The notes under the pieces were generated by a model. That model was given only the letters and a program-made list of their open reading frames with translations. It was not told the DNA's origin and made no database searches. This document shows, one piece after another, positions 2 to 46,077 of a stretch of 46,077 nt of DNA; the stretch's first letter is position 1, and each line of letters starts with the position of its first letter. Both the position numbers and the translations under genes were made by a program. The DNA comes from Acidobacteriota bacterium (GTDB lineage: Bacteria > Acidobacteriota > UBA4820 > DSQY01), in NCBI GenBank assembly GCA_021813555.1, contig JAKAKG010000059.1, positions 1 to 46,077 on the forward strand, read 5' to 3'.

Positions 2-802
2 TACCTGGGCGAAAACACCTGGGCCTACTACGTGCTGGCCAAGGGAAAGGCGCCGCTGTACCTGGACGGGTCGGCCTCGCTCAATACGGCCATGCCCATC
101 CTGTGCGAGGGAGAACCCTTCCCTGCGGGGGCCACCGCCTTCTTGTGCCCCTTGGGGACGGGGGAGCAGTTTTTCGGGGTTGCGGGTATCATCGGCAAAC
201 CTGAAGAGGCCTTTTCCGAAGAGGACCGGCGGGCGGCGGAGCACTTCATTCGCCAGGCGGCCGCCCTGGTCAAACTCTCGGCGCTCAATACCTTCAACGA
301 AGCCAATTCCATCAAGGATGGGCTCACGGGCCTCTTCAACCGAAAGTACTTCGAGGAGCAGGTCGTGAAGGAGATGGCGCGGAGCCAGCGGGAAAGTGCT
401 CCGCTGGGCCTTCTCATGCTCGACGTGGACCACTTCAAAAAGGTCAATGACACTTTCGGCCATCCCGCCGGTGACCTGGTTCTGCGGGCCGTGGCCGGCG
501 CGGCCCGCGCCGCCGTAAGAAAAGTGGACATCGTCTGCCGCTACGGCGGAGAGGAGTTCGCGGTCATCCTTCCCGTGTGCCCCGTGGCGGAGGCCAGAGA
601 GGTCGCCGAGAGGGTGAGAATGGCCGTGGAATCCCTGCCCGCTGGTCCTGGCGGCCTGCCCGCGCCCGTGACCGTAAGCGTAGGCGTGGCCGCTTACCCC
701 CACCCCTTTTCCAGTCCCACGGGCCTCACGAAGGGGGCCGACGCCGCTCTCTACACGGCCAAGAGCAGGGGCCGCAACCGGGTAGAAGTGGCGACGAGGT
801 AA
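2..802 (+). CDS. GGDEF diguanylate cyclase with GAF-like sensor region (5' end outside window)
   Basis: The reading frame is open from base 2, so the gene starts upstream. The first ~90 visible residues look like the end of a GAF-type sensor domain, closed by a helix. A complete GGDEF domain follows: the D-x-L-T-G-L-x-N-R entry motif, then the active-site loop R-Y-G-G-E-E-F. An R-K-V-D tetrapeptide sits five residues before GGEEF, which is the spacing of the RxxD inhibitory site for c-di-GMP. The family condenses two GTP into cyclic di-GMP, and conserved catalytic and inhibitory motifs suggest an active, product-inhibited enzyme. The signal sensed by the GAF part cannot be told from this fragment. 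It ends 94 bp before purD and has no obvious functional link to it. Confidence 0.9.
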   Translation, partial: YLGENTWAYYVLAKGKAPLYLDGSASLNTAMPILCEGEPFPAGATAFLCPLGTGEQFFGVAGIIGKPEEAFSEEDRRAAEHFIRQAAALVKLSALNTFNEANSIKDGLTGLFNRKYFEEQVVKEMARSQRESAPLGLLMLDVDHFKKVNDTFGHPAGDLVLRAVAGAARAAVRKVDIVCRYGGEEFAVILPVCPVAEAREVAERVRMAVESLPAGPGGLPAPVTVSVGVAAYPHPFSSPTGLTKGADAALYTAKSRGRNRVEVATR

Positions 803-5128: not shown

Positions 5129-5454
5129 GCCGCCGTCCACCGATTCGGTAGCAACAAGGCTGGGGTTGAAGCCAGTGAAAGGGCGCCGGCAGGTATTGCA
5201 TCTTGATCTTGAAAGTGCGCATAATACATTCAGGGTAGGGTGAGGGTAGCTTCCCCCCAGGGGGACTTCTCGTAAGACCGCAAATATTTACAGCGTTGTA
5301 GCGCGTCAGCACTTAGGGCGCGGGATCGGGCCTGTTGCCCTTTGTCTCTAGGCCGCCATGTGAGGGAAGGGACCTGAGCGCGGCCGCGAGGGCGGGGAGT
5401 ATCGGGAAGAGGTGTCTGCCACAGAAGTAGCGTACCAGAAGAGGGGGAACACAG
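5129..5454. other. 326-bp leader region of the large protease gene
   Basis: No credible ORF. CATAAT at 5220-5225 with TTGCAT at 5196-5201 (18-bp gap) is a possible but weak promoter. The stretch 5315-5341 can form AGGGC/GCCCT followed by TTTGTCTC, a weak terminator- or attenuator-like element. GAGGGGG about 8 bp before ATG 5455 is a good ribosome-binding site. A long untranslated leader is likely if the promoter is real. Confidence 0.4.
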
Positions 5455-8400
5455 ATGAAATGGCGTTGGGCGGCATTGGCGTGCTTGATCGTCGCGTCGC
5501 TGGCGGTTCCATCGGCGGCCCAGAGGGTCAAGTCCGGACATAGTTCCTTGGATGACCTGGCCTTCGCCAGCCCGGAGACACGGGTGGTGGTCCAACAGGC
5601 CGATCTGAACGAGCTGAGACCTCTCAAAATCGCGGCGGTGGACAAGGCCGCCGGAGCGTTCGACGCGTTCCTGGCGCGTTCGGGCGGCAACTGGACCATG
5701 ATCTACGACCGCGTGTCGGGCAACCCGAGCCTCGTGGAGGGCCGGGGCATCGCTTGGCTTGGCGGCAAGGCCTATGCGGCCGACGTGAACACCCTTGATG
5801 CCAAGGCGCGCGCGCTCCTCTCGGCCAACAACGGGTTCCTCAACACCGCGCCCGGTACCCTGGTCCTGGATCAGGCGGCCAGCGGCGCCGTCGCCGACTA
5901 TCTCTACTTCCTGGAATACACCTGGACTTATGGCGGCATACCCGTGGACAAGGCCCGGGTCGTATTCAGGCTCAATCACGGCAACATGGTTCAATTCGGA
6001 GCTGAATACATCGACCCCAGCTTGCGCCAGCTTGACCCCAATCCCTCCCTATCTGCTGAGGCCGCCCAGGACATGGTCTTTGGCTATCTGGGCGGGCGCT
6101 CGTCCCTGGACACCATCGTGGACAAGGGCCGGCTGCTGATCATCCCCGTGTCCTCGCCTGACGCTCTCTCCGGGGCGCTGGTCGAACCCGGAACCGGTCT
6201 TGCCTACCGTCTTGTGTACGTCATCATCCTCCGCAGGGCGGGCGTCATGGGCACGTGGGAAGCGCGCGTGGATGCGCATACTGGCCAGCTCCTCTCCTTC
6301 ACCGACATCAACGATTACGGCAGCGTGCACGGGGGAGTGTATCCCGGGGACCGCCCGGCCCCCGAGGCCGACCGCCCCATGCCCTTCGCGGACATAGGCG
6401 GAGGCGCCTACGCCGACGCGGGTGGTGTGTTCGCGGGCAACGACGCCACCTCCGCGCTGGACGGCAAGTACGTCAAGATCACGGACCAGGGCTGCGGCGG
6501 CGGGGCCATCAGCCTCTCCACCACCACCGGCGACCTCAATTTCGGCATGAGCTCCGGGACGGACTGCGTCACGCCCGGCTTCGGCGGCGAGGGAAACACC
6601 CACGCGGCACGAACCCAGTACTACGCCATCAACCTTATCAAGATGAAGGCCCTGACCTACATGCCCGGAAACGCGTGGCTCAACGGGCAGGTGAACGACA
6701 ACGTCAATCTAAACCAGGTCTGCAACGCATACTGGGACGGCAGTTCGCTGAACTTCTTCAAGTCGGGGACTTACGACACCTGGGTTTGCTCCAACACGGG
6801 CGAGATTCCCGGCGTGGCCCTCCACGAGTGGGGCCACGGTATGGACACCAACGACGGCAACGGCTCAAGCCCGGACAATGGGACGGGAGAGACCTACGGC
6901 GACTGGTCCGCTGCCCTCCAAACCCATAATTCGTGCGGTGGCAATGGCTTCTTCATCGGCGCCAACTGCGACGGTTACGGCAACCCGTGCAACGACTGCA
7001 CCGGCATCCGCGACCTCGATTGGGCCAAGCACGCCGACAACACCCCCGCCCTTCCTACCATGCTGAACGCCAGCTCTGGCTTTGCCTGCTGGCTAAAGCC
7101 CAGCTACGCGGGCCCTTGCGGCTATGAAGGCCACTGCGAATCGGCCATCTCCTCTCAGGCCCTGTGGGATTTGTCGGCAAGGGACCTGGTCAACGTGGCC
7201 AAACCCTATGGCCTGGACCAGAATTCCGCCTGGATTCTCGCGGACAAGCTGTGGTACCGGAGCCGTTCGACGGCGACCGCGGCCTACGCCTGCCCCAGCC
7301 TGGCCACCACCAACGGGTGCGGCGCCGGGAACCTCTTTACCGTCTTCCGGGTCATCGACGATGACGACGGCGACCTGAGCAACGGGACGCCGCATGCCAG
7401 CGCCATTTACGACGCGTTCAACCGCCACGCCATCGCCTGCACCACCGTCAACAACACGGATCACACGGGCTGCACCGCCATCACCGCTCCCACGCTGGGC
7501 GGGAGCTCAGGGAGCAACTCGAACTCGCTCTCCTGGAACACCGTAGCGGGCGCGGCCACCTACGACCTGTACCGCAACGAGAGCGGATGCGACGCCGGCT
7601 ACACCAAAATCTACAGCGGGGCCACGGCGTCCTACGTGGACAACCAAGCCATCGACGGCATGGTGTACTACTACCGGGTACAGGCCATCGGGACCAACAT
7701 CGTCTGCACGAGCCTCATGTCCAACTGCGTGGCGCTCAGCCCCTCGACGCCTTCCGGCGTGCTTACGGGCACCGTGCGGGACTCTGTCACCAGCAACCCG
7801 CTCGCCAACGTCGCCGTTCAAGCGGTCTCGGGGAGCTACAACTACGTGGCCACAACCGATGCCTCGGGCGTGTACACCATGCCTCTGGTGGCCGTGGGGA
7901 CCTATGATGTGACCGCCACGGTGTTCGGCTACCTCCCAGGCTCCGTTACCGGCGTCAGCGTTACCTTGGGAAATACGACCACCCAAGACTTCGTGCTCTC
8001 GGCGGCCCCCAACTTCGCCGTCTCGGGCGCGATCACCGACGCCAATACGGGCTGGGGACTCTATGCCTCCATCCACATCACGGCACCCGGCTGGGCTGGG
8101 ATGACCACCTTTACCGATCTCGCCACGGGCGCTTATTCCGTCAGCCTCACGGCCGGATCCACCTATACCTTCACGGTAACCTCCCGCGTCCCCGGGTACA
8201 ACACCGGCACGGCCTCCGTGGGACCGGTGATGGAGCCCATCACGCAGAACTTCGGGCTCGTCCCCGACGCCTGCGGCGCACCCGGGTACGCGTCCGCGCC
8301 CATTGTCTCTTGGGACTTCAACGCCGGACAGCCCGCGGGCTGGACGGTGGTGAATGACGGCGGCACCTGCGACTGGGTGTTCGACGACCCCGGCGGCCGG

Positions 8401-16318: not shown

Positions 16319-16381
16319 GGGACGGAAGACACGGGACGCGGGAAGCAAGACGCGAGACGCGAGACGCTAGACTCGAGACGC
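16319..16381. repeat. heptad array, unit GAGACGC (9 units)
   Basis: Nine consecutive 7-bp units with no phase slip: GGGACGG, AAGACAC, GGGACGC, GGGAAGC, AAGACGC, GAGACGC, GAGACGC, TAGACTC, GAGACGC. It begins 4 bp after the receiver gene's stop codon. The same unit recurs at 19118-19214 and 39522-39557. Confidence 0.9.
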
Positions 16382-16413
16382 AAAAAAATGTAGCGGGAGC
16401 TGCCGGTGGTTTT

Positions 16414-16493
16414 CCTAGTCCCCTAATCCCCTAGTCCCCTAGTCCCCTAGTCCCCTGATCCCCTGGTCCCCTAGTCCCGCAATCCCCTCATCA
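16414..16493. repeat. octad array, unit CCTAGTCC (10 units)
   Basis: Ten 8-bp units with no phase slip: CCTAGTCC, CCTAATCC, CCTAGTCC three times, CCTGATCC, CCTGGTCC, CCTAGTCC, CGCAATCC, CCTCATCA. The last unit contains the stop codon of maf (16491-16493 on the minus strand), so the array runs from the 3' end of that gene towards the receiver gene's heptad array. Confidence 0.92.
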
Positions 16494-25050: not shown

Positions 25051-25079
25051 TTGACAATGGCTGTCTGAGCCCCTACATT
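25051..25079 (+). promoter_or_regulatory. sigma-70-type promoter
   Basis: TTGACA (25051-25056) exactly matches the -35 consensus; a 17-bp spacer leads to TACATT (25074-25079). Predicted start near 25086. Confidence 0.65.
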
Positions 25080-25085
25080 TCCCGC

Positions 25086-25471
25086 ATATTCGTGGTCCGT
25101 TCATGTAGGCGCGCCTCCGTTGGGTTTGGGGTGAGGCGTGAGGGTGTAAGAAGCCAAAGGCGTTAGCGCAGGCCAGGCGCGAGGGGGTTCGTTTTCTCCT
25201 CCGCCGGAGCCGTTCCCACGGCGCGATGGCAAGGGGAGGGCCGCGGTTGAAGTGACCTCAGGTTAAAGCCGCGAGGGCGTCGGCACCAGGCGGGGGAGTG
25301 CTGGATGCCGGTTGGGTGGCACCGAGCCGCGGGTGCGGCCAAGCGCGGGGCGGCAAGACACGCGGCAAACATGCCCGGAGGCTTTGATCCGGGGGCTTAG
25401 ATGGTCACCTCGCCCCCGAGGAGCCAGAGGTGAAACCGGCCGGCGCGCTTATCGGCGTGACCGGTTTTTTT
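25086..25471 (+). ncRNA. candidate structured RNA or riboswitch-like leader
   Basis: Bounded by the promoter and the T7 terminator. Near its 3' end CGGGGGC (25390-25396) pairs with GCCCCCG (25412-25418), and TCACCTC (25405-25411) pairs with GAGGTGA (25427-25433). The order is that of an H-type pseudoknot with two 7-bp stems, directly stacked and with 8-nt loops. The second stem ends at the base where the terminator stem begins, so ligand-dependent control of termination is conceivable. It does not carry the conserved sequences I know for RNase P RNA, tmRNA, SRP RNA, or the cobalamin or c-di-GMP-I riboswitches. Confidence 0.4.
25433..25471 (+). terminator. intrinsic terminator inside the leader
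   Basis: AAACCGG (25433-25439) and CCGGTTT (25461-25467) form a stem with a 21-nt loop that can pair further (CGC/GCG), followed by a run of seven T from 25465 to 25471. It lies about 140 bp before the start of the secreted protein gene. Confidence 0.75.
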
Positions 25472-25476
25472 GTCTC

Positions 25477-25514
25477 TAAAGGAGGTGGTGGATTTGAAGG
25501 AGGCTGACGGGTAG
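25477..25514 (+). promoter_or_regulatory. perfect Shine-Dalgarno with a possible six-codon leader ORF
   Basis: TAAAGGAGGTG (25477-25487) is an 11-nt match to the complement of the usual 16S rRNA 3' end. TTG 25494 lies 8 bp after GGAGG and opens a six-codon ORF ending at TAG 25512-25514. It may be a leader peptide between terminator and gene; chance cannot be excluded. Confidence 0.3.
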
Positions 25515-25612: not shown

Positions 25613-26662
25613 ATGGTACATACTCACTGGAGTACCAGCACGCGTTTCGGTTCTTTCCTTTTGTTGATGGCGGCCGCTCTGCTTGTGAGCATGCCGGTTC
25701 TGGCCCAGGGCGGCGGTGGCGGTGAGATTGAAACGGCTGGCAACAACCTCTCATGTCCGGTGATCTTGGCTGGTGGGGCGTCTCTATCCTTTCGTGAGCC
25801 GCCGGCCGGCACGGATTACAGCCTCCTGGGAGCCTACTGGTATGGATGGATAGACCCCACAACCGGTCTACAGATGGCCTGCGACCCTGCCGTATTGGGT
25901 TGCCCACCCGAAGGAGTAGAGATCTCGCGCATCTATCTGCAGAAGGATCCCCTGAGCGTCTGGCAGGCCGGACATGTGGAATCGAATGTGCCGGTGCCGG
26001 CGGCCTACTTTGATTGGAGCGACGACATCGAGTCTACCCTTTGGAGCAGCAGTTCCGTCGTCCGAGTGGAGACCGTGCCCTTCGCGTACGCGCCGGGCAT
26101 GCTGGGGTTCCAGATGTGGTGGGCAAGTGGTAAAGGCGTCGATGAAGTGTGGGGGGCGCGAGCCTCTGGCACCGATCCGCCTGTACCGACTGAGTACCCT
26201 TCCTCCCCCAACTATGCCACGGTCTACTCCACCAACGCGTGGCTAACCCTGCAGAAATTGGAGGCCGGTGGGGGCAGCCTGGCCGTGCCTCCAGACAGCA
26301 GCGGCTACGTCTGGAACGCCAGTGCCCATCAGTGGGACAATACTGCCGCCCACACGGTCCGCGTCGAACCCTGCAGCGCCGAGATCAATGTCGGAGGCAA
26401 GGTAATCTACGGTTTCAACTGGATGCTCAAGCGCCAGATCATGGCAGCGGGTGAGGCCAAAGACGGCTGGTGGCGGCTGACGTTCTCGACCAGCGAGAAT
26501 ACGATCCTCGTTACGGAAGGCACCGTGCTGACGCCACCTCCCCCGGCGGTTCCTCCCGCTGAGCAGTCCTTCTTCGCCAAAGTTGATCCCGTCAACAACG
26601 TGACCTACATCGATATCTATATCACAGCCGCCAAGGGCGGCGGTGGAGGCAAGAAGGGTTAG
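25613..26662 (+). CDS. secreted protein of unknown function
   Basis: 349 residues with a signal peptide (hydrophobic F-L-L-L-M-A-A-A-L-L-V core, cleavage after V-L-A-Q near residue 33) and a glycine run straight after it. The mature part is rich in W, Y, S and P, with a C-x-P pair (C-D-P-A-V-L-G-C-P-P) and predicted beta strands. A glycine/lysine tail (G-G-G-G-K-K-G) ends the protein. I recognise no family. GGGAGG precedes ATG 25613. It is monocistronic: its own long leader upstream, two strong hairpins downstream. Base composition is a little lower in GC than its neighbours. The context suggests regulated production of an exported or surface protein. Confidence 0.75.
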   Translation: MVHTHWSTSTRFGSFLLLMAAALLVSMPVLAQGGGGGEIETAGNNLSCPVILAGGASLSFREPPAGTDYSLLGAYWYGWIDPTTGLQMACDPAVLGCPPEGVEISRIYLQKDPLSVWQAGHVESNVPVPAAYFDWSDDIESTLWSSSSVVRVETVPFAYAPGMLGFQMWWASGKGVDEVWGARASGTDPPVPTEYPSSPNYATVYSTNAWLTLQKLEAGGGSLAVPPDSSGYVWNASAHQWDNTAAHTVRVEPCSAEINVGGKVIYGFNWMLKRQIMAAGEAKDGWWRLTFSTSENTILVTEGTVLTPPPPAVPPAEQSFFAKVDPVNNVTYIDIYITAAKGGGGGKKG

Positions 26663-26735: not shown

Positions 26736-26782
26736 TTGGGGTGAAACGAGTTGCGCCGCGCTGCCGGCCCTCCTCCGCGCCT

Positions 26783-26870
26783 CCCCTCATCCCCTCATCC
26801 CCGCATCTCCTCATCTCGGCATTTCGGCATTTCGGCATTTCGGCATCTCGGCATTTCGGCATCTCCGCAT
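26783..26870. repeat. octad array, unit YYCSKCAT (11 units)
   Basis: Eleven 8-bp units without slip: CCCCTCAT twice, CCCCGCAT, CTCCTCAT, CTCGGCAT, TTCGGCAT three times, CTCGGCAT, TTCGGCAT, CTCCGCAT. Positions 3 and 6-8 never vary. The same family recurs at 45464-45495 and, inverted, at 45333-45412. Confidence 0.95.
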
Positions 26871-26911
26871 CCCACCACTTGAACCTGGGGTATGCTTCTT
26901 CGGGGTGGCCC

Positions 26912-37716: not shown

Positions 37717-37758
37717 TCGGAAATCGGAATTCGGAATTCGGAAATCGGAATTCTGAAT
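37717..37758. repeat. heptad array, unit TCGGAAW (6 units)
   Basis: Six 7-bp units without slip: TCGGAAA, TCGGAAT, TCGGAAT, TCGGAAA, TCGGAAT, TCTGAAT. It starts 17 bp after the platform gene's stop codon. Confidence 0.9.
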
Positions 37759-37812
37759 TTGACATGCGCTGGCTGACATTCAAGGTTCTACGCTCGATCG
37801 GAGTTGACGACG

Positions 37813-45914: not shown

Positions 45915-45919
45915 GTTGG

Positions 45920-45975
45920 GCAGTAGGCAATAGGCAGTAGGCAATAGGCAGTAGGCAGTAGGCAATAGGCAGTAG
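45920..45975. repeat. heptad array, unit GCARTAG (8 units)
   Basis: Eight 7-bp units without slip, alternating GCAGTAG and GCAATAG (order G, A, G, A, G, G, A, G at the variable base). It starts 5 bp after the pseudopilin stop codon. Confidence 0.95.
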
Positions 45976-46007
45976 GGTGACTAGGTGACTAGGTGACTGG
46001 GTGATTA
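45976..46007. repeat. octad array, unit GGTGACTA (4 units)
   Basis: GGTGACTA, GGTGACTA, GGTGACTG, GGTGATTA, directly joined to the preceding heptad array. The unit is close to the reverse complement of the 16414 array (GGACTAGG). The remaining 70 bp to the window end show no feature. Confidence 0.9.
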
Positions 46008-46077
46008 GGACACGCTCTTCCTTGACTCTTCAGCTTGCGGGCTCCTCTGTTTGCGATGAGAGGGGCAGGGGTTCGCG

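Follow-up and report, generated by a model that had tools for sequence, protein, structure and literature searches.

A probable c-di-GMP-II riboswitch, predicted to act as a transcriptional ON switch, in the 5′ UTR of an acidobacterial secreted-protein gene

The acidobacterial contig analysed here (46,077 nucleotides, referred to below as the window) carries a GC-rich leader that ends in a pseudoknot and an intrinsic terminator ahead of the gene for an orphan secreted protein, which raises the questions of which RNA this is and what it would do to the gene behind it. The first-pass annotation read the region as a candidate riboswitch or structured RNA of a new class. The covariance-model search against Rfam that it had suggested was run on the whole window and gave a single above-threshold match, to the c-di-GMP-II family (RF01786), with E = 8e-11 over the full length of the model (Table 1). 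The riboswitch reading is supported, and the class is one that has already been described: the element is real and well formed and belongs to a known riboswitch class, though its host is unusual. In full, we consider it very probable that the 5′ UTR of the secreted-protein gene contains a c-di-GMP-II riboswitch that would work as a transcriptional ON switch. The other cyclic di-GMP class, c-di-GMP-I (RF01051), is absent from the window according to the Rfam scan and was not found in the rest of the same genome, though the control genomes were likewise silent. The Rfam scans of the window contained no intron family, and no fusion to a group I ribozyme adjoining the aptamer was found.

Table 1. 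Positions of the promoter, RNA elements and downstream gene in the window
Feature	Positions	Strand	Remarks
Sigma-70-type promoter, TTGACA-17 bp-TACATT	25051–25079	+	10/12 matches; conserved in congener L009
GC-rich 5′ leader ahead of the aptamer, 282 nt	25086–25367	+	Matches no known RNA family
c-di-GMP-II riboswitch aptamer (RF01786)	25368–25449	+	59.4 bits (gathering score 53.5 bits), model positions 1–84
Aptamer hairpin, stem CGGGGGC (25390–25396)/GCCCCCG (25412–25418)	25390–25418	+	5/7 pairs with two-sided change
Pseudoknot, TCACCTC (25405–25411)/GAGGTGA (25427–25433)	25405–25433	+	100% paired, one two-sided change
AACCGG of the binding core	25434–25439	+	AACCG invariant in six copies
Intrinsic terminator, hairpin ~25438–25466, T7 tail 25465–25471	25438–25471	+	P1 3′ strand lies within the 5′ arm
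Gene for 349-aa secreted orphan protein (predicted regulated gene)	25613–26662	+	Apparent signal peptide; Gly-rich stretches near both ends

The genome that contains the window (3.3 Mb, 235 contigs) has a single c-di-GMP-II copy. The family occurs in four of the 13 genomes of the class that were examined, and no genome sampled elsewhere in the phylum has it; the literature that we searched contained no report of c-di-GMP-II in Acidobacteria. Searching public genomes with the downstream protein returned three loci (L009, L010 and L011), all from metagenome-assembled genomes named Acidobacteria bacterium, and each has above-cut-off c-di-GMP-II upstream of the protein homologue, giving four copies, two of them in L010. 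The L010 copies (5374–5456 and 5586–5669) form a tandem pair about 212 nt apart. The homologues are 69–93% identical to the window protein. L009 shares the window's gene order around the element and L010 departs from it, and as the riboswitch and the gene nevertheless co-occur there, the two evidently stay together. A further copy, in L004, scores 43.1 bits, which is below the cut-off. The gene behind it (L004:358–1341, − strand) codes for an unrelated protein that also has an apparent signal peptide and belongs to no known protein family; L004 comes from another genus of the same bacterial family. The window, L009, L010 (two copies), L011 and L004 make up the six-copy set used below.

The two stems described by the first-pass annotation are present and interleaved as it stated, and they are the two interleaved helices of the c-di-GMP-II aptamer. 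The first stem is the internal hairpin of the RF01786 model. From the alignment and the known architecture of the class, we take the second to be the class pseudoknot, which is unpaired in the nested model of Rfam. The pseudoknot itself is real, but the structure is larger than the H-type pseudoknot first described, with an outer helix, P1, and a 3-bp helix (25380–25382 with 25423–25425) in addition. The consensus pairing of the hairpin loop with the 3′ strand is GCAC/GUGC; its counterpart in the window is UCAC/GUGA, extended to 7 bp, in which the consensus G–C pair 39–67 (RF01786 numbering) is replaced by U–A, a two-sided change that keeps the pairing. The inner 5 bp of the pseudoknot are conserved in all six copies, and among the relatives there is a two-sided change from A–U to G–C in L011. 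Covariation was assessed over 21 pairs in the alignment of the six aptamer copies (A2), with 500 shuffles and slid versions as controls. Helix pairs were kept in 96.7% of cells, and seven pairs showed two-sided compensatory changes (five in the hairpin, one in P1 and one in the pseudoknot); none of the 500 shuffles reached the observed compensation and the slid controls gave 0–1. The sample is small (six sequences from few independent lineages) yet agrees with the established model. Compensatory changes among the homologous copies, for which the annotation had proposed to test, are present in both of the stems that it described.

Upstream of the aptamer, the exact −35 hexamer noted earlier is present as TTGACA. 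The site to which it belongs is the only sigma-70-like one in the 700 bases examined, where shuffled sequence would be expected to give 0.1. The promoter region is identical to that of the congener L009 at 41 of 43 bases (95%), and L011 has TTGACA-17-TATATC upstream of its own aptamer. The leader between promoter and aptamer is 88–89% identical to that of L009; its conservation is confined to the genus and no confident alignment to L010 or L011 was obtained. Rfam searches of it at permissive E-values gave chance-level matches only. The stability of the whole 395-nt leader does not exceed that of shuffles (z = −0.70), so the signal sits in its 3′ part. The tandem in L010 suggested that the leader might contain a second, degenerate aptamer; this was rejected, as there is no RF01786 match even at E-values up to 10. 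That the 282-nt stretch is a second, unrecognized regulatory element cooperating with the c-di-GMP-II switch seems very improbable to us.

The GC hairpin and T7 tail of the terminator lie behind the pseudoknot as first described. The annotation had the last base of the pseudoknot touching the terminator stem; the relationship goes beyond touching, as the P1 3′ strand lies inside the terminator 5′ arm. The hairpin 5′ arm includes this strand and the conserved core G in six of six copies, and this overlap supports the suggested control of termination. As the P1 3′ strand and the core G cannot serve both structures, aptamer and terminator are mutually exclusive, and the ligand should therefore favour read-through. 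The anatomy predicts a transcriptional ON switch. Transcription would start near 25086. Without ligand, the downstream hairpin would capture the P1 3′ strand together with the core G next to it, and at about 25471 hairpin and T7 tail would end transcription. Once c-di-GMP is bound, P1 and the pseudoknot of the aptamer would retain the P1 3′ strand and block the terminator, and RNA polymerase would continue into the secreted-protein gene, which is thus probably turned on when cyclic di-GMP is abundant. Each of the two L010 copies is followed by a GC hairpin of its own, yet the U tract is poor (UUGGUGU), so that termination in L010 may be inefficient or proceed in another way. With 21 matches to GGDEF and seven to EAL in the genome that contains the window, signalling by c-di-GMP is plausible and the signal is likely to be made; one of the GGDEF matches is inside the window (32–802). 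The proposed direction would agree with the class II switches of Clostridioides difficile: all four act as ON switches, and three lie upstream of known or putative adhesins (PMC6200980); they are described as uniformly ON and mostly placed before adhesin genes (PMC6200980; review PMC11477304).

Directly behind the terminator, near 25480 (window 25478–25514), is the element AGGAGGUG, which reads GGAGGUG in L009. It is followed by short frames that all start with M-K-E (MKEADG in the window and in L009, MKEQR in L010 and MKEPTT... in L011); element and frames are possibly a small upstream ORF or an mRNA-stabilizing ribosome site. The conservation of AGGAGGUG in four species and its ability to pair with the pseudoknot 5′ strand are what an OFF switch, or control mainly of translation or RNA stability, could draw on. 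We consider this very unlikely: the duplex energies are close to those of reversed controls, barely beating them in the window and L011, and the pairing was rejected as a candidate (the segment used from L010 was not the pseudoknot strand); the start codon of the gene itself is also more than 100 nt downstream of AGGAGGUG, and the exclusion between P1 3′ strand and terminator predicts the opposite sign, ON.

Within the binding core, we take the AA..G of AACCGG to correspond to the residues A69, A70 and G73 that contact the ligand in the aptamer of C. acetobutylicum, and these predicted contact positions fall in the stretch that is invariant in all six copies. The same scaffold might have an altered ligand, since Rfam holds the variant families c-di-GMP-II-GAG and c-di-GMP-II-GCG (PMC12452182), but within its clan RF01786 scores best for the window copy and for each of the other four above the cut-off, and the AA..G core is canonical throughout the set; an altered ligand is very unlikely, and c-di-GMP is the predicted ligand. 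The proposal of a new class, which drew on the annotator finding no matching class and on the orphan status of the downstream gene, can be dismissed, as the full-length RF01786 match exceeds the curated threshold, related species hold four more copies above that threshold and one below it, and the core positions and helices of c-di-GMP-II are conserved.

The secreted protein encoded downstream has an apparent signal peptide and is, as first described, an orphan: no Pfam family scored over the cut-off, NCBIfam had none and a PDB sequence search returned nothing convincing. Its predicted structure was unusable (mean pLDDT 36.7). What is new here is confined to the presence of class members in a small acidobacterial lineage, where they are otherwise ordinary, and to the orphan target gene; the association makes this family of secreted proteins, which lacks annotation, a likely target of c-di-GMP, perhaps with surface or biofilm functions.

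Elsewhere, the window contains short tandem arrays of 7–8 base units (for example CATTTCGG, CCTAGTCC, TCGGAAT and GGCAGTA), mostly intergenic, at 16319–16488, 26768–26871, 37717–37759 and 45919–46009. The array at 26768–26871 casts doubt on the N-terminal extension of the SfsA ORF.

Among known systems, the c-di-GMP-II riboswitch of the window resembles C. difficile Cdi-2-4, which precedes pilA1, in its pseudoknotted aptamer, its AA..G core, its terminator-controlled read-through (predicted here) and its position upstream of a gene for a surface or secreted protein. It differs from Cdi-2-4 and RF01786 in its GC-rich acidobacterial host, its orphan target and the long leader before the aptamer, and from the RF01786 consensus in the U–A pair of the pseudoknot. 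Tandem c-di-GMP-II riboswitches have been reported as 59 doublets and nine triplets, mostly in Paraclostridium and close relatives (PMC9481103); the window, with one copy, differs from these, whereas its relative L010, with two aptamers before the same gene, is like them.
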